Shown: in pieces, positions 21,251 through 54,415 of the stretch
Layout: every line of letters begins with the position of its first letter
Position numbering within the stretch: the stretch's first letter is position 1
Origin: Weissella hellenica
GTDB taxonomy: Bacteria; Bacillota; Bacilli; Lactobacillales; Lactobacillaceae
Assembly (NCBI RefSeq): GCF_005405545.1
Contig: NZ_BJEG01000008.1
Span: forward strand, 1-64,000
Direction of reading: 5' to 3'
Length of the DNA: 64,000 nucleotides
Program-made: the position numbers and the translations under genes
The notes under the pieces: model-generated
What the model saw: the letters and a program-made list of their open reading frames with translations, nothing else
Database searches by the model: none
Told to the model about the DNA's origin: nothing

Positions 21251-21343
21251 CTACTTCTTGTGGCGGTTGTCGATATACGTCAACAACGCCAACAAGAAGC
21301 TTCCAAACAGTATCATCAAGGATACTGTCTCGAAAACAGACAT
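21251..21343 (-). CDS. holin-like type I toxin peptide, copy 2
   Basis: 30 residues: MSVFETVSLMILFGSFLLAL then LTYIDNRHKK, one membrane helix and a basic tail. AGGAGG lies 11 nt upstream of the ATG. The 5' leader extends towards 21440 with the conserved GGCGGTGGCTAA segment. The most diverged of the three copies at the N-terminus (FET for HDT). Confidence 0.8.
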   Translation of the reverse strand: MSVFETVSLMILFGSFLLALLTYIDNRHKK

Positions 21344-21548
21344 GTTTAGCTAATCCTCCTTTCATTAGATTTTGAAGTCTACGAACACTCGTTCATAGGC
21401 ACCAACCCCTTTCGGAAAGATTAGCCACCGCCTTTTAACCCATAAATATATTTTAACATAAAGCCAGTTACTAACGCCTATATTATCAAACTTATGACTG
21501 GCTCTTTATGTCATCTAATCGTTAAAATTTTCACCCTTTGTTTAATTA

Positions 21549-25208: not shown

Positions 25209-25301
25209 TTACTTCTTGTGGTGGTTGTCGATATACGTCAACAACGCCAACAAGAAGCTTCCGAACAATATCATTAAAGATATTGTATCGTGAACAGACA
25301 T
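25209..25301 (-). CDS. holin-like type I toxin peptide, copy 3
   Basis: 30 residues: MSVHDTISLMILFGSFLLAL then LTYIDNHHKK. AGGAGG lies 11 nt before the ATG. The mRNA probably starts after the TATAAT box at 25409-25414 (- strand) and has a leader of about 100 nt with an upstream ATG in another frame that would overlap the toxin start, plus a small palindrome ATGAATgttATTCAT; such leaders usually hide the toxin ribosome site. Confidence 0.8.
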   Translation of the reverse strand: MSVHDTISLMILFGSFLLALLTYIDNHHKK

Positions 25302-25634
25302 TTCTGGCTGATCCTCCTTTCGTTAGATTCTGGTGTCCATGAATAACATTCATAGGCATCACCCTCTTTCTAATAGAAAGTCAGCCACCGCCTTTAACCC
25401 GTTTGGATATTATAACATAAAAGAATGCCACGAGCACGATAGTATCAGTGTTTGTGGCATTCTTTTATGTTAACCATATTTTGAACTAAAAAATTCATTT
25501 CACAAATTCTCAATGCTTATTTACTTAAGAATGATCGTTTGCCGAAATAAAATGTCTTTCAGACCATATAAAGAAAGCAATTAAACACTTTTTAAACCAA
25601 CAATCATCATTTACAAAATGAAAACAAATTAAAG

Positions 25635-26590
25635 TTAAATAATAATAATTGGTCTTGGGTGGCTAGGTGCGTTCCAAGCTTCTTTAATATTTTCTAATTT
25701 AAATATGTTAGTAGCAACTTGCCAGTTATTTATAATTGCTAACTCAAGTACATTCTCAATTGCTGAAACTAATTCTTTACCACGAAGTGATCCCATTCCT
25801 GATCCCAATAAAGTTATTTTAGTTGACCTTAATAAAGCCCCAGGTAAATTAATATTTGAGGCTACTAATGTTCCTATTTGAACATAACGGATTTCTGATT
25901 GACGATTACTAAATTTATAAAGTGCTTGCATAATTTTTTCAGCAGTATCTCCCCATAAGTAATCTAAGACAATCGTAACATCAGCAATAATTTGACCTAA
26001 ATCTTCTATATATTGAGATTGACTTTTGCCTTCATAATCGTTTGATGCTAGATAAAAATCTGCACCAGCAGTTTGTAAAGCTTCTTTATCGCGACCTAAT
26101 GCAATAACTTTTTTGGCGTCCAAACCGTACGCCATTTTAATTGCTAGTGTCCCCGCTGTACCAGTAGCACCATTAACTAAAACAACATCATTTTCAGTAA
26201 TTTTAGCTCGATTTACCAATGCTGCATATGAACTCATTCCTGGATTAGCAATTGCGGCGGCGGTAATTGTATCTAGTCTTTCGGGTACCTTTACCATTCG
26301 ATGTTTATCAACAACTGTCTTTTCAGCTAATGCACCATATATTCCTTTTGACCCATTAAAAAATAATAACGTTCGCCACTATCAGATTCACCAACTCCTT
26401 CCATACCAGCAACTTTAGAAAATGCATCATCACTAGAATAATGATTTCCTAAAGACACACCTTTACTAACGATAGTTAATGCACTTGCTTTAACGTTTAA
26501 CATTAAAGCATCATCAGACAACACTGTAGGTTCTTGTATTTCTTTAATTACTAGTAAAATTCCTTTATTTGTAACAACTGCTGCTTTCAT
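25635..26590 (-). pseudogene. frameshifted zinc-type alcohol dehydrogenase/quinone oxidoreductase
   Basis: The N-terminal part (MKAAVVTNKGILLVIKEIQE..., GroES-like fold) runs from 26590 and stops at 26327. The Rossmann part (PGMSSYAALVNRA, then LVNGATGTAGTLAIKMA) reads one base out of phase from the same region to 25635. Restoring one T in the T6 run (- strand; 26358-26363) joins them as YYFF-NGSKGIYGALAEKTV. About 318 residues when repaired, normal for the NAD(P)H-quinone-reductase-like group. Divergent from a MarR regulator with shared operators. Confidence 0.75.
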
Positions 26591-31713: not shown

Positions 31714-32946
31714 TTAATCTAAATCATGAAATCCAATATCTTTACGGTAATAAAAATTAGCTAAGTTCAAATTAGCTAAGCTAGTATTAACAATTAATTG
31801 GGCATCTTTAAGTGTTGGTGCATGTGCAATCAAAGTAAAAATACGTCCGCCCGAACTATATAATTTTTGATTTTCTGCCACAACACCACCATAAAAGACA
31901 TTATCTGGTAAATCGGGTAACGCAATATGCTGTTGAGGATCACTTGGATAGCCCGGTGCAGCAACAACCGTTCCTAGATAGTAATCTTTATTTTGCCAAA
32001 TCATTTGTGGACTCTTACCAGCAATTAAATCAGTTATTGCGGTATAAAAATCACTCTTTAACTGTGGTAATAAAATTTGTGTCTCAGGATCACCTAAACG
32101 AACATTAAACTCAATGACTTTAATACCACCACTAGTTAACATACATCCAATATATAAGGTACCTGCATACATTAAATGTTCATTTTGTAAACCAGTCATA
32201 ATTGGTGCGACAATTGTTTTTTTAACTTGCGCAATAATATCATCCGTAATATGAGGAACGGGTGAATAAGCGCCCATCCCCCCTGTATTAGGTCCCTGGT
32301 CGCCTTCAAAAATTCTTTTATGATCCTGCGAGATAGGTAAAATAATTGGCTCAGGTCCACCAACAAATACCATTAATGAAAACTCTTCACCCACTAAATA
32401 GTCTTCTACAAGAACTTGATGAGATTTTTGGATGCCATCATGTAAAGCTGAAGATAATTCATCAGTGTCTTTGACAATTTGGACACCTTTACCACCTGCT
32501 AAACCATTCTCTTTAATGACTACTGGTAGTGATAACTGCTGGCTGTAATCTAAAGCCTGCGCCACATCAGTAAATACATTAAAATCTGCAGTCGGCACGT
32601 GATTACGTTTCATAAACTCTTTAGCAAACTGTTTATCACTTTCTAATCTGGCAGCGGCCTGATTAGGGCCAAAAACTTGAATGCCTTTCGCCGATAAAAA
32701 GTCAACAATACCATTAGCTAACGGCGCTTCTGGTCCGACAAAAACCAAATCTATCTGTTGTTGCACCGCAAAAATAGCTAATTTTTCAAAATCATTTTCT
32801 GAAATTGCTACTGTTTCAATACCGCTTATTTGCATGCCAGGATTCCCCGGAGCGCAAAAAACCGTCTGTACCTGTTGACTATGCAAAAAAGTTGTCGCAA
32901 TCGCGTGTTCACGTGCGCCAGAACCAATGACCAGAACATTAAACAT
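31714..32946 (-). CDS. purD: phosphoribosylamine-glycine ligase
   Basis: A 410-residue ATP-grasp enzyme making GAR from phosphoribosylamine, glycine and ATP. VLVIGSGAREHAIA opens the N-terminal domain, KENGLAGGKGV is the ATP-binding loop, and HKRIFEGDQGPNTGGMGAYS the conserved catalytic segment. Last gene of the operon, with AGGAGGG before the ATG, 14 bp after purH. Confidence 0.93.
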   Translation of the reverse strand: MFNVLVIGSGAREHAIATTFLHSQQVQTVFCAPGNPGMQISGIETVAISENDFEKLAIFAVQQQIDLVFVGPEAPLANGIVDFLSAKGIQVFGPNQAAARLESDKQFAKEFMKRNHVPTADFNVFTDVAQALDYSQQLSLPVVIKENGLAGGKGVQIVKDTDELSSALHDGIQKSHQVLVEDYLVGEEFSLMVFVGGPEPIILPISQDHKRIFEGDQGPNTGGMGAYSPVPHITDDIIAQVKKTIVAPIMTGLQNEHLMYAGTLYIGCMLTSGGIKVIEFNVRLGDPETQILLPQLKSDFYTAITDLIAGKSPQMIWQNKDYYLGTVVAAPGYPSDPQQHIALPDLPDNVFYGGVVAENQKLYSSGGRIFTLIAHAPTLKDAQLIVNTSLANLNLANFYYRKDIGFHDLD

Positions 32947-32960
32947 TAAAGTAAGCCCTC

Positions 32961-34490
32961 CTAATGTCTAAAATGGCGTACGCCAGTCGTTACCATTGCA
33001 ATACCATACTTATCGGCCATGGCGATTGAATCCTTATCATGGATACTACCACCTGGTTGTACAATAGCCTTAATATTATGTTGTGCTGCATACTTTACAC
33101 AGTCATCCATTGGGAAAAAGGCATCTGACGCTAAAATAGCATCTTCATAACCATCCTTTGCCATCGCTTTTTGTACGGCAATCTTGGTTGCATCAATACG
33201 GTTAGGTTGTCCCATACCGACACCTAATGTCTTTGTAGCCGTCGTAACAACAACAGCATTACTTTTTACAAACTTCACAACATGTTGCCCAAATTGTAAT
33301 GCTTTTAATTGCTCAGCTGTCGGCTGTTTCTTTGTCACGACTGTAAAACTTGGTGCTGCTTCAACTTGTCGGTCCGTTTCTTGTACAAGCAAACCACCAC
33401 TAACTGCAATAGTCTCAAAACGTTCCGCTTCATCAGCATGGCTCAAATCAGCTTGTAATAAGCGAATATTCTTTTTCTTACCTAAAATTTCTAAAGCTTC
33501 GGCACTAAATGACGGTGCAATTACAATTTCTAAGAAAATTTCATGCATCTTTTGTGCAGTTGCGGCATCAATTTCACGATTAACTGCGACAATACCACCA
33601 AAAATAGACATCGGATCTGATTCGTATGCCTCATCCCAAGCTTGTTCAATATTATCAGCAATACCAACGCCACATGGATTCATGTGTTTCATTGCCACCA
33701 CACAAGGTTCTGAAAATTCACTAACCATGTTCAAAGCTGCGTTAGCGTCTTTCAAATTGTTAAATGATAGTTCCTTACCATGCAATTGTTTTGTGATAAT
33801 TGACAACTTTGTAGGAATAGGATTACGATAAAACGCTGCTTTTTGGTGACTATTTTCACCATAGCGTAAACTTTGTTGCTTTTCATACGTTAACGTTAAC
33901 TTTTCAGGGAATGCTTCAGTTGTTAAGTAATTCGCAATTAGGGTGTCATATGCAGCAGTATGCTGGAATACCTTAGTTGCCAGTTCTTTTTTAAATGCTA
34001 AATCATTATGGCCAGCTTCTAAAAATGATACGACTGGTTCATAATCGGCTGGATCCACAACCGTCAAAACATCCGCAAAATTTTTGGCAGCTGCACGTAA
34101 CATCGACGGACCACCAATATCAATTTGTTCAATGGCTTCTACTTCAGTTGTATCAGGCTTTTCAATTGTTTCCTTGAAAGGATACAAGTTAACGACCACT
34201 AAATCAATTGGTGCAATGTCTACTTCACGTAATTGTGCCATATGGGCTGGGTTATCACGTTTTGCTAATAAACCACCATGAATTTTGGGATGTAAAGTTT
34301 TGACACGACCATCTAACATTTCAGGGAATCCTGTAATGTCTTCAACACCTGTTACCGCTAGTCCACCTTTTTCAAGTGCCTTTTTTGTACCCCCGGTTGA
34401 AATAATTTCAAAATCTAAGTCAATTAACTGACGTGCAAATTCAAGTAACCCAGTTTTATCTGACACACTTAACAACGCTTTTCTAGTCAT
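32961..34490 (-). CDS. purH: bifunctional AICAR formyltransferase/IMP cyclohydrolase
   Basis: A 509-residue protein catalysing the last two steps to IMP. The N-terminal MGS-like cyclohydrolase domain ([37 protein letters not shown]) is followed by the transformylase domain with [21 protein letters not shown] and [10 protein letters not shown]. Normal length. It starts 2 bp after the purN stop. Confidence 0.95.
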
Positions 34491-34492
34491 TT

Positions 34493-35077
34493 TTAGAATT
34501 CCCCTTTTTCTAATAGCTCTTTAACAATTGATGGATAAAATGTATGTTCTGTTTGATGAATTCTTTGTTCAAGATCCGCTAATTTATCCGTTTTATAGAT
34601 TGGTACTTTATGTTGTGCAATAATTTGACCAGAATCAATGCCTTCATCAACCCAATGAATCGTAACCCCAGTTTCTGAAACACCTGCTTGATAGGCATCT
34701 TCAATTCCATGACGACCAGGAAAATGAGGTAATAACGCTGGATGAATATTAATAATTTTGCCAGCATATGCCGCTAATAAAGTTGGCCCCACAATACGCA
34801 TATAACCAGCCAACAAAATAAAATCAATTTGTTCAGCCGCTAATTTTTTGATAATAGCTGCCTATGCTGCGGCCTTATCGGCATAGTCTTTAAAGTTAAC
34901 AACCAAACTAGGTACTTGTTCTTGCTTTGCCCGTTGTAAGACATTAACATTTTGATGATCACATACTAGCAAAGTAACTTTAACTGGCATTTTTTCATAG
35001 TCAAAGGCCTGACACAGCGCTGTAAAATTTGTGCCCTCACCCGAAGCAAAAATCGCTATTTTTTTGATCGTTGACAT
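34493..35077 (-). pseudogene. purN: GAR transformylase purN interrupted by an amber codon
   Basis: The gene is in frame from ATG 35077 (TIKKIAIFASGEGTNF) to 34493, 194 codons, the normal PurN length, but codon 72 is TAG (34862-34864) in the context DKAAA-stop-AAIIKKLAAEQ. The conserved core after the stop (LLAGYMRIVG, INIHPALLPHFPG, HWVDEGIDSGQ, with catalytic Asn-His-Asp) is intact, so decay is recent. A glutamate, glutamine or similar codon would need one substitution to become TAG. Restart at the TTG at 34816 gives only the C-terminal half. The start overlaps the purM stop by one base. Confidence 0.85.
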
Positions 35078-36093
35078 TACTGCAACTCACCTTTCAAATT
35101 AACTTGCCGTGTTCCCGGTATAATATGACCAATTTGATAGGCTTGTTCCCCTGTCTGCTGTAAAGCGTCCATAACAGCCTTAACATTTTTGGGATCAACT
35201 GCTAACACCATACCAATACCTAAGTTAAAAGTTTTCGTCATATCTGAAAACGTGAGTTGTCCAAGTTCTTGGAGTGAATGCATGATTTTGGGAAGTGGCC
35301 ACGCATCAACGTTAATTTCAGCATCTAATTCATCAGTTAAAATGCGACCAACATTTTCAATTAAGCCACCACCGGTAATATGAGCAATAGCATGTACTTG
35401 ATTTTGTTGTATCAACGGATAAACTGCATCCACATAAATGCGTGTTGGCTTCAATAATTCTGTCTGCAAATCTTGTTTGTGCCCGGGTAAAATATCCGTT
35501 AATGCATAATGATGCTGTTTAAATAAAATATCACGCACCAAACTAAAGCCATTTGAATGTAAGCCATTTGAAGCTAAGCCAATCAATACATCTCCAGCTT
35601 TGGTATTATCAGCTGTTAATAACTGCGCTTTATCAGCAATACCAACTGCAAATCCCGCTAAGTCATAATGCTGATCATGATACATATCTGGCATTTCAGC
35701 TGTTTCACCACCCAGTAGAACAGCGCCAGCTTGTCTAACACCTGCAACCACACCAGTCAAAATATCTTTGGCTTGTGTCGCATCTAAATGACCCGTACCA
35801 ATATAGTCTAGAAAAAATAATGGTTTCGCACCCTGTGCTAAAACATCATTGACACACATAGCCACCAAATCAATACCAACTTGTGTGTTTTGTTGCGCCT
35901 GAATAGCAACCAACAACTTGGTCCCAACACCATCGGTACCTGCAACCAACACTGGGGTTTGATACGATCCAATATCTAACGGAAACAACCCGCCAAATGA
36001 ACCTAGTGACTCGTTTTGTGTTAATTCCTTAATTTGGTTGACAAGTTGATATCCTGCATTTATATCAACACCCGCCTTTTTGTAGGCATCCAT
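35077..36093 (-). CDS. purM: phosphoribosylformylglycinamidine cyclo-ligase
   Basis: A 338-residue AIR synthetase: AYKKAGVDINAGYQLV start, LVAGTDGVGTKLLVA and GGETAEMPDMY (nucleotide-binding), and HITGGGLIENVGRIL. Normal length; in the operon between purF and purN. Confidence 0.95.
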   Translation of the reverse strand: MDAYKKAGVDINAGYQLVNQIKELTQNESLGSFGGLFPLDIGSYQTPVLVAGTDGVGTKLLVAIQAQQNTQVGIDLVAMCVNDVLAQGAKPLFFLDYIGTGHLDATQAKDILTGVVAGVRQAGAVLLGGETAEMPDMYHDQHYDLAGFAVGIADKAQLLTADNTKAGDVLIGLASNGLHSNGFSLVRDILFKQHHYALTDILPGHKQDLQTELLKPTRIYVDAVYPLIQQNQVHAIAHITGGGLIENVGRILTDELDAEINVDAWPLPKIMHSLQELGQLTFSDMTKTFNLGIGMVLAVDPKNVKAVMDALQQTGEQAYQIGHIIPGTRQVNLKGELQ

Positions 36094-36120: not shown

Positions 36121-37581
36121 TTATAATACTGTAGCGATTGTTTTTACATCACGATGATGTAATGCTTCTTGCTCTGCATCATATTGTTTTTGATAGTCAT
36201 ATAACGGCGTTGGATACTTACCATCAAAGTAAGCGACACATAAACTACCATTTGGTGCGCCTGTTTCTAAGCCCACTGCCTTTATCAGACTTGGGACACT
36301 CAAAAATCCTAATGAATCAGCACCAAATGTTTGGCACATTTCTGACAGCGTTTGATTGGCTGCAATTAATTCACTGGCATGTTGGATATCAATACCATAA
36401 AAACAGGGGTATTTTAGTTCTGGGGATGCAATTCGTAGATGTACCTCAGTTGCGCCTGCATCCTTTAACAACTTGACAATTCTGCGACTAGTGGTGCCTC
36501 TTACAATGGAGTCATCAACCAAAACAACTCGTTTTCCTGCCACAACACCCTTTACTGCCGAAAGCTTCATATTGACGCCTTGTTCACGTAATTTTTTAGT
36601 TGGTTGAATAAATGTCCGACCAGAATACTGATTTTTAACCAACCCCATCTCATATGGGAGTCCTGATTCTTGTGCGTAACCCATAGCGGCTGATAGTGAA
36701 GAATTCGGTATACCGATTACGATATCTGCATCGACAGCTTGTTCCTTAGCTAATAGAGCACCCATTCGCTTACGGGCAGAATGAACATTAACCCCATAAA
36801 TATCTGAATCTGGGCGTGCAAAATAAATAAATTCCATAGAACAAATTGCTAGTTGTGTATCTGCTGCATAAGTTGAGACTGATAATCCATTATGATCAAT
36901 TTTTAATAATTGACCAGGTTGTACATCACACAAAAAAGTAGCCCCAACCGCATTTAATGCACAAGTTTCACTACAAACGACAAAACCGCCATTTGGTAGT
37001 TTACCAACAACAAGTGGTCGAAAACCATTTGGATCAAGTGCTGCATAAAGACAATCTTTTGTTAAAAGCAAATAGGCAAAGCCACCTTTAATTTGGCGTA
37101 AAGCATCTTTTACTTGTTCATCTAACGTTGGCTCTTTACTTAGACGAATAAGATGCATGAGGTTTTCCGAATCTGAACTTGATTGATAGATAGCACCTCT
37201 GTCTTCCAACGTTTGACGAATTGTTTGTGCATTCGTCAAGTTACCATTATGTGCAAGAGCAAATTGTGTATCGCTAAAATTAAAAGGTAGTGGTTGAATA
37301 TTTTCTAATAAATTACTTCCTGCTGTTGAATAACGCACATGCCCAATAGCTGCTTGGCCCTGTAATTTTTCAAGCTCTACTGTATCAAACACATCATTTA
37401 GTAATCCTAAATCACGCTTCGTTCTCAGCTGACCATTATTATTAATTGTAATTCCTGCACCTTCTTGACCACGATGCTGTAGGGAAAACAAACCAGTATA
37501 GGTTAAGAATGCTGCGTCAGAGGTACCCCAAACACCAAAAACACCACATTCTTCATTTAAATGACTTACTTCAGACTGCAT
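36121..37581 (-). CDS. purF: glutamine amidophosphoribosyltransferase
   Basis: First enzyme of purine synthesis. Start at the ATG at 37581 (AAGGGG upstream) gives 486 residues with an 11-residue propeptide before CGVFGVWG; removal would expose the catalytic cysteine. The glutaminase domain has [18 protein letters not shown] and AHNGNLTN; the phosphoribosyl domain has [19 protein letters not shown], the PRPP loop. Overlaps purL by 16 bp. Confidence 0.95.
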
Positions 37582-39800
37582 GGTAAAGCCCCTTTCCAAA
37601 TATTCAATGCTTGTGAAACTGCTAGGTCAAAGGCCCCGTCTTGTGCGGTTACATGCAAATGATCATCGTCAGTTACTTGTCCTAAACGAGTTGCATCGTC
37701 ACCCACTAATTGTTCAAAGGCAACCTTATTTTCCGGACTTACTGACACAACAAAACGGGATTGTGTTTCAGCGAAAAATTGACGTACTGTTAATTCACTG
37801 GTTAAATTAACCCCTAACTGGTTTTTAAAGGTTGCTTCGGCAATTGCAACAATCAATCCACCTTCTGATACATCGTGCGCACTATTTAATAAATCGTTTT
37901 GAATGGCTTGTGTGACCAAATTTTGCATTTTAAGTTCGTTATCTAAGTCAAAATCAAATAATTGCCCTGATACTTTACCTGTTTGCATTTTTTGGATTTC
38001 TGAACCATTAAAATCATTATATGTTTGCCCGATAACATAAACGAAGTCACCAGCTTGTTTGAAATCTTGTGTTGTTATATGCTTTAAGCCTTGAATTAGC
38101 CCAACCATTCCAACCATTGGTGTGGGATAAATTGGTACATCATTAAATTCATTATGCAAAGAAACATTTCCTGATATAACAGCTGTCTCAAACATTTCAC
38201 ATGCTTCACTCATACCTTGTACAGCTTGGTCTAATTCATAAAATTGTTCTGGCTTTTCTGGATTTCCAAAATTCAAACAATCTGTGATACCAAGTGGTAA
38301 AGCTCCTGAAGCCACAATATTTCTAGCCGCCTCAGCAACAGCCATTTGTCCACCAACTCGCGGATTCAAGTACAAATAACGACCATTAACATCTGTTGTC
38401 ATGGCTAGTGCTTTGTCATGATGACGAACTCGTATAACTGCTGCATCCGAACCAGGCTTCACTAGCGTATTTGTTTGAACTTGTGAATCGTAGGTTTCGT
38501 ATAGACTTTCTTTAGAAGCAATTGTTAATTGTGCCAACATTTGCTGCAAAACCTCAGTAGCTGAAGAAATATCGGGAACAAATTGCGTTGCACTTGCTTG
38601 TTCAATCCGAGCGGGTATTTTACTTTCACGATGATAAACAGGTGCTTGTGAGGCTAATGCATCAACTGGCACATCAGCAACAATTTCACCATGATGAATT
38701 AATTGATAATGATCATTATCAGTCACATGACCAATATTAACAGCCTCTACACCATATTCAGCAAAGACTGCTAGTACTTCTTCTTCATAACCATTTTTGA
38801 CACACAACAACATCCGTTCCTGTGATTCAGATAGCATCATTTCAAATGGTGTCATGTCGGCTTCTCGCTGGGGCACTAAGTCCAAATCCAAAATCATACC
38901 ATTGCCACCAGCTTTTGATCCCATTTCTGCTGAAGAAGAAACTAAACCTGCTGCTCCCATATCTTGCATACCAATCAAAGCGTCTGCATGATTAGTACTA
39001 ATTTCTAAACACGCTTCCATAACTAACTTCTCAGTAAAAGGGTCACCAACTTGCACTGCAGAACGTTGGCTTTCATGTTCAGAATCAAATTGAGCTGATG
39101 CGAACGATGCACCATTAATCCCATCACGCCCCGTCTTAGCTCCAACATAAATAATACTGTTACCAACACCAGCTGCAGCACCAACTTGAATTTTATCCAA
39201 ATCCATCAGTCCAACGCACATGACGTTTACTAACGGGTTTTGTGAATAAGCATCGTCAAAGGCGATATCACCACCTACAGTTGGTACTCCAATACAATTA
39301 CCGTATGCAGCAATTCCAGCAACAACTTGGGAAATTAAATACCGATCAGCTGCTGTACGCGGTGTGCCAAATCGTAAACTATCTAAACTAGCAATTGGCC
39401 GTGCACCCATTGAAAAAATATCTCGTAAAATACCACCAACACCAGTTGTTGCACCTTGAAAGGGTTCTACAGCTGACGGATGATTATGACTCTCCGCTTT
39501 GAAAACAACTCCCTGACCGTTGCCAATATCAATAATCCCGGCACCTTCACCAGGACCTTTCACGACACGTTTACCCTTTGAAAAGAATTTTTTCAAAACC
39601 GGTTTTGAATTTTTGTATGAACAATGTTCACTCCACATACCTGAAAACAGACCAACCTCAGTATAATTGGGTAAACGACCAAGTACTTCATTTTTAATTA
39701 ATTGGTATTCATCATCTGAAAGACCTAGTGACTGGTAAAGTTTTTGACTTTCAATGGTGGCTGGTGAAATTTCTGTAGTTTGGACACCGACATTACTCAT
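37566..39800 (-). CDS. purL: phosphoribosylformylglycinamidine synthase, large subunit
   Basis: 744 residues, the small-type PurL that works with PurQ and Pur[36 protein letters not shown] and [14 protein letters not shown] are hallmark segments. Overlaps purQ by 8 bp and purF by 16 bp. Confidence 0.95.
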
Positions 39801-40479
39801 TAAAAGCTACCTCACGTTCCTTAACAAAGTTAATCATTGCTGTAAATATTTTCACACCATCATCAGATCCTAAAATTTTTTCAACTGCTCTTTCTGGGTG
39901 TGGCATCATGCCCAATACATTTCCTTGTTGGTTTGTAATACCTGCGATATCCGATAAACTACCGTTAGGGTTATTTTGATACTTAAAAACAATTTGATTA
40001 TTTTCTTTTAAACTTTTAAGTGTTTTATCATCACAATAGTAATTGCCATCACCGTGCGCAATTGGTAACGTAATCACCTCTTGATCATCATACAAATCAG
40101 AAAATGGGGTTTGATTATTTGTAACAATCAACTTTTGATCACGACATACAAATTGTGCGACTGTATTCTTTTGTAGCGTCCCCGGTAACAAGCCTGCTTC
40201 AGTTAGAATTTGAAAACCATTACAAATACCAATAACTGGCTTACCACTATCAGCAAATTCACGTAGAGCAGGAATGATTGGTGCAAAACGTGCAATAGCG
40301 CCACTACGTAAATAATCACCATAAGAGAAACCACCCGGTACAATGACAGCATCAAAATCAATTAATGATTCTGAATCATATGAAACTAAGGCTGCCTCTT
40401 CACCAAAAACATCAGTAATCGCATAATAAGCATCTAACTCACAATTAGATGCTGGAAATGCTAAAATCGCAAAGTTCAT
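39793..40479 (-). CDS. purQ: phosphoribosylformylglycinamidine synthase, glutaminase subunit
   Basis: 228 residues, class I amidotransferase: [32 protein letters not shown] with the nucleophilic cysteine, and [10 protein letters not shown] with the catalytic His/Glu. ATGA overlap with the purS stop. Confidence 0.95.
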
Positions 40480-40739
40480 GACAAATCCTCCGACTCACTA
40501 ATTTCATAGGTATAATTCTCCATGTTGTAGTTTGCCAACATACGATCACTGATTTCATTAACTTCTTTCTCAATTGCTTCACGCGTCATGCCATCTGCAA
40601 AAGTTAATTCAAATGACTTACCAACTTTTAATTGCGTAATATTATCATAGCCAAGGCGCCCAAGGGCCTGTTGAATAGCTTGAGCTTCTGGGTTTAGAAT
40701 TGATTCTTTATAATTCACAAAAACTTTAACGACTGTCAT
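40476..40739 (-). CDS. purS: phosphoribosylformylglycinamidine synthase, PurS subunit
   Basis: 87 residues ([20 protein letters not shown]...LGRLGYDNI), the small bridging subunit of the PurLQS complex. Between purC and purQ with 5 bp and -4 bp spacing. Confidence 0.93.
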
Positions 40740-40744
40740 AGCTA

Positions 40745-41482
40745 TTAAGCCTCCTCTGAATGTAGTAAACGTTGCAAAATTTCTTCATAAACGGGGACCA
40801 TGTCACCCAGCCCTTGTCGGAAAATATCCTTATCTAGTGACTGTTTTGTTTGCATGTCAACTAAACGACAATTATCAGGTGATAACTCATCTGCTAAAAT
40901 AACATCGCCTGTATTTGTTATCCCGAATTCAAGTTTGAAGTCGACCAGTTGAACGTTTATTTTTTCAAAAATTTTTATTAGATGTTGATTAACCTGCAAG
41001 GCAATCTGACGAATTTTTGAAATTTGCTCTCTTGTGGCAAGTTCTAGCGCTAAAGCATCATCATCATTTAAAAAAGGATCGTCTAATGCATCATTTTTAT
41101 AAAAGAATTCAATGACTGGTTGTGCAAATTCTTGTAAATATTCTGTCTGATAGCGTTTTACAAAGCTACCTGATGCACTATTACGAATAACGGTTTCCAA
41201 CGGAATAATTTTTACACGTTGTACCAATTGATCTGTTGGCCCAATCTGTTTAATAAAGTGATTCTCAATACCTTGATTGCGTAAATCCGTAAATAATTGT
41301 GTTGAAATAGCGCAATTTGTTTTACCCTTATCTGCCATTTGAACCTTACGTTTACCATTCAACGCTGTTACCTGATCAAGGTAGTGCACCCACAAAATAT
41401 CAGGATAATTAGTGGTATACATTTCCTTTGCTTTGCCGCGATATAACAATTCTTGTTTTTCAACTTCTGCCAATTCAGTCAT
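40745..41482 (-). CDS. purC: SAICAR synthetase
   Basis: 245 residues: LLYRGKAKEMYTTN (ATP loop), PLETVIRNSASGSFVKRY, VDFKLEFGI and LADELSPDNCRLVD. Normal length for the bacterial enzyme. Confidence 0.95.
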   Translation of the reverse strand: MTELAEVEKQELLYRGKAKEMYTTNYPDILWVHYLDQVTALNGKRKVQMADKGKTNCAISTQLFTDLRNQGIENHFIKQIGPTDQLVQRVKIIPLETVIRNSASGSFVKRYQTEYLQEFAQPVIEFFYKNDALDDPFLNDDDALALELATREQISKIRQIALQVNQHLIKIFEKINVQLVDFKLEFGITNTGDVILADELSPDNCRLVDMQTKQSLDKDIFRQGLGDMVPVYEEILQRLLHSEEA

Positions 41483-41484
41483 CG

Positions 41485-42606
41485 TTAATCTTCTCCCTTT
41501 AACATAGCTGTTGTTGCTAATAACTCATCAACATCCTTACCTACAACCGTAATATGACCTAATTTTCTTTGCGGTCTAATCCCACTTTTACCATAATCAT
41601 GAAAATGCCATTCGGGATGCTTATTGAATAATTCACGGGCTAAAGTTAAATCATTTCCCAATAAATTACGCATCACTGCTGGCTGTTCTTGCTTTATATA
41701 TGGTATTGGTAAACCGCAAATACTACGAATATGCGCTTCAAATTGTGAAATATTGCAAGCTTCAATTGTATAATGACCAGAATTATGTGGTCGTGGTGCC
41801 AATTCATTAACGACTAATTCATGATCATTAATGACAAAAAATTCAATGCCTAAGACACCATAAAGGTCTAGCTCATTCGCAATCTTTTCAGCATAAGTTT
41901 GCGCTTTATGCCGCAATGTATCAGAAAATTGATTAGCCGCAATTGTTGTATGTAAAATATGATTTTTATGTTGATTGGTTACCAAAGGAAAAGTATAAAT
42001 TTGTTTGTTAAGATCCCGCGTTACCATCATTGAAGCTTCTGCTTGAAAAGCCTGTCGCGCTTCTAAAATACATGGTACTTGTTCATACAATTGTGACGCT
42101 TTACTAATATCACTTGGGTTATTAATGTCTAACTGGCCATGCCCGTCATAACCACCACTAACTGTTTTCAAAAGTGCAGGATAACCTATTTTCTCAATAG
42201 CTACTTGTAATGATGATTCGTCCGTAACTGAGGCAAAATTCGTTACTGGGACTTGTATATTTTTCAAAAAGCTTTTTTCTCTTAAACGTTGACCACTAAC
42301 GTGTAATAAGTTGATTCCTTGCGGTAAGGACGTATACGCAGTTACCTTTTGCAACGTTTTTTCCGCTACATTTTCAAATTCGTAAGTTAACACCGCACTC
42401 CGCTGCGCAAGTTCTAATAATGCTGCTTCATCGTCATAGTCAGCTGTTATTTGAAAATCAGCAACTTGAGCTGCTGGTGCATCTAGAGTTGGATCTAAAA
42501 TACCAACTTTATATCCCATACTTTTAGCACTTAACGCCAACATTTGTCCTAATTGTCCCCCACCCACAATGCCAATGGTTGCTGGTGGCAAAATGGTTTT
42601 AATCAA
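41485..42606 (-). CDS. purK: N5-carboxyaminoimidazole ribonucleotide synthase
   Basis: ATP-grasp enzyme: IGIVGGGQLGQMLALSAKSM at the start, LLKTVSGGYDGHGQ, and NELAPRPHNSGHYTIEACN. Start taken as the TTG at 42606 (GAGG upstream, overlapping the purE stop), giving 373 residues; the TTG at 42624 is also open. Confidence 0.93.
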   Translation of the reverse strand: MIKTILPPATIGIVGGGQLGQMLALSAKSMGYKVGILDPTLDAPAAQVADFQITADYDDEAALLELAQRSAVLTYEFENVAEKTLQKVTAYTSLPQGINLLHVSGQRLREKSFLKNIQVPVTNFASVTDESSLQVAIEKIGYPALLKTVSGGYDGHGQLDINNPSDISKASQLYEQVPCILEARQAFQAEASMMVTRDLNKQIYTFPLVTNQHKNHILHTTIAANQFSDTLRHKAQTYAEKIANELDLYGVLGIEFFVINDHELVVNELAPRPHNSGHYTIEACNISQFEAHIRSICGLPIPYIKQEQPAVMRNLLGNDLTLARELFNKHPEWHFHDYGKSGIRPQRKLGHITVVGKDVDELLATTAMLKGED

Positions 42607-43090
42607 AACGTGCCTCACTTTCAATAGCCGCTTGGCGTTGTGTTTCTTTTAATGCAATTAACTTTTCTTGAACACTTGTTTGTGTAATCCCCAACATTTG
42701 TGCTGCTAAAATAGCTGCATTTTTAGCACCAGCATCCCCAATGCTAAGTGTTGCAACCGGTGCTCCTGCTGGCATTTGTACAATTGATAGTAATGAGTCC
42801 ATACCATTTAATGTTCGCGTTTTAATCGGAACGCCAATTACCGGTAATGTTGTATTAGCTGCAATCATTCCAGGTAAATGTGCTGCACCACCCGCACCTG
42901 CAATAATGACTTTTATACCCTTATTACGCGCATTTTCACCAAATTCTTGTAATTCATTCGGCATACGATGAGCTGATATGATCTTTTTTTCAAAAGATAT
43001 CCCTAACTTTTCAAGCTGTTCACATGTCAATTTCATTGTTGACCAATCTGAAATTGAACCCATTAATACTGCAACTTCATTTGCAACCAT
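42599..43090 (-). CDS. purE: N5-CAIR mutase
   Basis: 163 residues, class I PurE: VLMGSISDWSTMKLTCEQL, SAHRMPNELQEF, AGAGGAAHLPGMIAA. First gene of the operon; GGTGAGG ribosome site. Confidence 0.95.
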   Translation of the reverse strand: MVANEVAVLMGSISDWSTMKLTCEQLEKLGISFEKKIISAHRMPNELQEFGENARNKGIKVIIAGAGGAAHLPGMIAANTTLPVIGVPIKTRTLNGMDSLLSIVQMPAGAPVATLSIGDAGAKNAAILAAQMLGITQTSVQEKLIALKETQRQAAIESEARFD

Positions 43091-54124: not shown

Positions 54125-54415
54125 TAAAAAAAATCCCGTTGTATGACACTATACATGTCATACAACGGGACGATTAATTATCGTGTTACCACCCGAGTTC
54201 TGTTCATTAATTATCTGAACACTCAATTAAGTACGCGCAAAAATGCGGTAATACTCTAGCGCAATAACGGGCGCACCCGGAAATAACTTATTCTCATCAA
54301 CTCGTCATTTCACTCACTCTAAGGCCATTTTCACCATCCTCATTGATTGCATTCCACCAAACCGCAACTCTCTGAACAATTAAAGATTGATTACTTACCT
54401 CGTCTTCGTTGTTTA
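54125..54415 (-). promoter_or_regulatory. T-box riboswitch, methionine specifier
   Basis: Upstream of metQ on the - strand: a long Stem I region with AATG-rich loops, candidate specifier ATG at 54306-54308 in GTGAAATGACGAG, the T-box GGGTGGTAACACG (54182-54194), and a terminator CCCGTTGTATGAC...GTCATACAACGGG followed by TTTTTTT (54125-54172). Uncharged tRNA-Met would stabilise the antiterminator and switch metQ on. Confidence 0.85.

Follow-up and report, generated by a model that had tools for sequence, protein, structure and literature searches.

A premature amber codon in purN of Weissella hellenica and a predicted dependence on purine salvage

In the stretch of Weissella hellenica DNA that we analysed (the window, 64,000 nucleotides), the purN gene for GAR transformylase is interrupted by an in-frame TAG and is conserved throughout the rest of its reading frame. 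The other genes of the pur operon are intact, no purT or other GAR transformylase was found in the genome, and genes for purine salvage are present. These observations are probably best explained by a recent single-base nonsense allele that would inactivate purN and leave the sequenced strain a salvage-dependent purine auxotroph. Most likely, this is an ordinary pseudogene, which requires no unusual biology and no new mechanism. The coordinates of the features discussed are collected in Table 1.

Table 1. The pur operon and the parts of the interrupted purN gene (window coordinates)
Feature	Position	Strand	Remarks
purE	42599..43090	-	intact; family model
purK	41485..42624	-	intact; family model; best genome-wide match to the purT model, far below cut-off
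purC	40745..41482	-	intact
purS	40476..40739	-	intact
purQ	39793..40479	-	intact
purL	37566..39800	-	intact; family model
purF	36121..37599	-	intact; family model
purM	35077..36093	-	intact; family model; end overlaps purN start by one base, shared by the purM stop codon and the purN ATG
purN (GAR transformylase)	34493..35077	-	TIGR00639 and PF00551; 194 codons, TAG at codon 72
N-terminal purN piece	34865..35077	-	71 residues; GAR-phosphate loop GEGTN
premature amber TAG	34862..34864	-	Glu at this site in 40/41 distinct homologs, gap in 1/41
C-terminal purN piece	34493..34816	-	from first usable TTG (codon 88); carries N110, H112 and D148
purH	32961..34490	-	intact; family model
purD	31714..32946	-	intact; family model

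The interrupted purN frame and its relatives

The purN frame extends from M1 to F194, with the TAG as its single internal stop, and after this codon it is open until the stop following residue 194. The amber codon, which an earlier note on this DNA had reported, was thus found again at the same place, and it was also marked ('1 TAG') in our whole-genome search with PF00551, where purN scored 192.4 bits. When the TAG was translated as X, the match to the PurN model TIGR00639 covered residues 5-191 and reached 219.9 bits, above the family cut-off of 150.1 bits; as it stands, the gene is not one uninterrupted open reading frame. The active-site residues G13, G15, N17, N110, H112 and D148 are all kept in the reading frame and are divided by the stop. 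Since the GAR-phosphate loop (residues 13-17) lies upstream of the TAG and the catalytic residues lie downstream of it, neither piece holds the whole active site. What the earlier note called the active-site half is only the C-terminal half of the protein, and the loop precedes the stop.

Among named relatives, W. sagaensis and W. paramesenteroides are the closest; their PurN proteins are 87% and 80% identical in amino-acid sequence to that of W. hellenica, and where the pur operon is shared the DNA identity is about 85% and 80%, respectively. Codon 72 is GAA in W. sagaensis and GAG in W. paramesenteroides, so a single substitution, GAG to TAG, is enough to account for the stop at this near-invariant glutamate. 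All 19 invariant columns of an alignment of 41 homologs are kept in the purN frame, and among the 90%-conserved columns the TAG is the sole departure. There are no indels relative to either relative, and the differences from them fall mainly at third codon positions. The dN/dS of purN against the two relatives was 0.145 and 0.126, within the range of the remaining operon genes (0.05-0.15); selection on purN would thus have stopped too lately to leave a mark. For the N-terminal piece the ratio was 0.24 against W. sagaensis and 0.10 against W. paramesenteroides; being raised against only one relative, it does not consistently indicate relaxed selection. The absence of indels, the lack of any invariant-residue loss and a dN/dS like that of the operon rule out an older decay of purN. 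No stop was found inside PF00551 matches in 59 other genomes, and the premature stop is absent from the relatives. Measured against the species split, the stop in purN would then be young, or else it is not real. Because the remaining pur genes look maintained, the allele, if fixed, would be very young.

The absence of any further decay in purN is also what a sequencing or assembly error would produce, in which case the true codon is a sense codon and purN is intact. The draft assembly consists of 28 contigs, and two genes elsewhere in the genome are frameshifted, at least one of them at an A run. An error here would, however, have to be a substitution outside any homopolymer, in a genome of high completeness and low contamination (99.99% and 0.16%), and substitution errors in consensus sequence are usually rare. 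We consider an error at this base unlikely.

Translation past the amber codon

If the base is correct, translation of purN would be expected to stop after 71 residues, unless the amber codon is read through or suppressed often enough to supply full-length PurN. The fully conserved frame downstream of the TAG is compatible with readthrough, but such conservation is expected for any young stop, and PurN of the relatives has no internal stop. The earlier note had proposed a search for suppressor tRNAs; we detected 48 tRNA genes, and none has a CUA anticodon. At the end of contig C14 lies a truncated tRNA, which was considered as a suppressor and rejected, since its sequence reads as tRNA-Leu(CAA). 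The best match to PylS in the genome scored 22 bits, far below the cut-off of 178, so that neither a CUA anticodon among the tRNAs found nor PylS points to a recoded amber codon. The draft tRNA set lacks Ala and Ile tRNAs and is therefore incomplete; the missing tRNAs probably fall in collapsed rRNA regions, and a suppressor inside an assembly gap is conceivable. On balance, readthrough or suppression at a useful level appears very unlikely.

Restart of translation beyond the stop would yield PurN in two pieces that reassemble into a working enzyme. A TTG-start frame of 107 residues is present downstream of the TAG, and engineered fragments of E. coli PurN reportedly complement each other. No Shine-Dalgarno-like sequence, however, precedes any of the candidate restart codons (TTG 88, TTG 89 and ATG 93), and a start at codon 88, the first usable one, drops residues 72-87, including the near-invariant L79. 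We found nothing decisive in the literature on split PurN or on purine auxotrophy in Weissella, and we regard a functional two-piece enzyme as extremely improbable.

The purine pathway and GAR formylation

The ten other genes of the operon are full length, have no internal stops and are under purifying selection (family models were applied to seven of them), which bears out the claim of the earlier note that the other pur genes are intact. An intact purB was found on contig C14. Lack of the formyl donor was rejected as a further defect, since Fhs, a source of 10-formyl-tetrahydrofolate, is encoded in the genome. Searched with Rfam, the operon showed neither a purine riboswitch nor any other RNA feature. 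Elsewhere in the window and on its minus strand, a T-box leader (RF00230, 115.9 bits) was found at 54163-54415 and two matches above the gathering score to the Listeria sRNA family rli28 (RF01492) at 21273-21465 and 25231-25424. An alcohol-dehydrogenase/quinone-oxidoreductase-like gene (26300-26590, minus strand) is split into frames of 87 and 220 residues by an apparent one-base frameshift near an A run at about 26344; a relative in genome G025 is a single frame of 322 residues.

Mutants of E. coli lacking both purN and purT are unable to turn GAR into FGAR (PMC3261824). The earlier note had seen no purT in the window and had left open a copy elsewhere as a rescue. Our model search extended the absence to the whole assembly (a 1.81 Mb draft) and excluded such a rescue within it: the best match was purK, with 130 bits against a cut-off of 502, and all matches were purK and other ATP-grasp proteins. 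The only PF00551 match in the genome besides PurN is a 347-residue frame of the Fmt type, and there is therefore no PurU and no second PurN. No match to a plasmid copy of purN was found.

That an unrecognised GAR transformylase elsewhere makes purN dispensable seems scarcely credible: some archaea, a known purine prototroph among them, have a pathway that is otherwise complete without purN or purT (PMC3261824), but each member of the genus that we searched has both PurN and purH or lacks both. To our knowledge, no GAR transformylase of such a type exists in Lactobacillales. It is likewise very improbable that the strain is prototrophic despite the stop by any of these routes, whether a split PurN made by restart, readthrough or an unrecognised enzyme.

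Salvage, pathway loss in the genus and comparison with known systems

A recent nonsense allele of purN remains the preferred reading. A change from GAG to TAG at the conserved codon 72 would end translation ahead of the folate-binding and catalytic parts, so that GAR would be left unformylated, with no purT as a backup. The strain would then need external purines, imported by permeases and converted by phosphoribosyltransferases. Genes for the hypoxanthine-guanine (HGPRTase) and adenine (apt) phosphoribosyltransferases are present, as are at least six loci for purine/uracil-type permeases (PF00860). With these enzymes and permeases, salvage should sustain growth where purines are plentiful. 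One of the several copies of the permease gene (contig C1:251539-252665; L196, G000) is frameshifted near FFAF.

When one genome was sampled per species, purN and purH were both missing in 8 of 28 Weissella species, so loss of the whole pathway is common in the genus. The remaining genomes have purN and purH without stops, except for the TAG described here and for G004, and W. hellenica is alone in the genus sample in having a stop inside purN. In G004, a genome that is 66% complete, the two genes were found only as broken pieces (contig C24, about 163300-165330), through either decay or poor assembly. The suggestion of the earlier note that the amber codon is an early step in loss of the pathway fits these data best, since such loss recurs in the genus, but it may overstate the case: the allele may be private to the strain, acquired in culture or polymorphic within the species, or the base may be an error. 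If the base is right, the stop would mark the first lesion to become visible in this pathway, which has disappeared altogether from 8 of the 28 sampled species, and a simple nutrient requirement is predicted. General understanding is unchanged by it.

The PurN orthologs of W. sagaensis and W. paramesenteroides occupy the same position between purM and purH and resemble the W. hellenica gene in their invariant residues and in the lack of indels; they differ in keeping Glu72, where W. hellenica has TAG. The allele is also similar to the recent nonsense pseudogenes known from nutrient biosynthesis in lactic acid bacteria, with a single stop in a single gene of a pathway that a rich diet makes dispensable and that has been lost repeatedly in the genus. 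In comparison with those pseudogenes, only one gene has been hit here, and the rest of the operon is as yet without decay.
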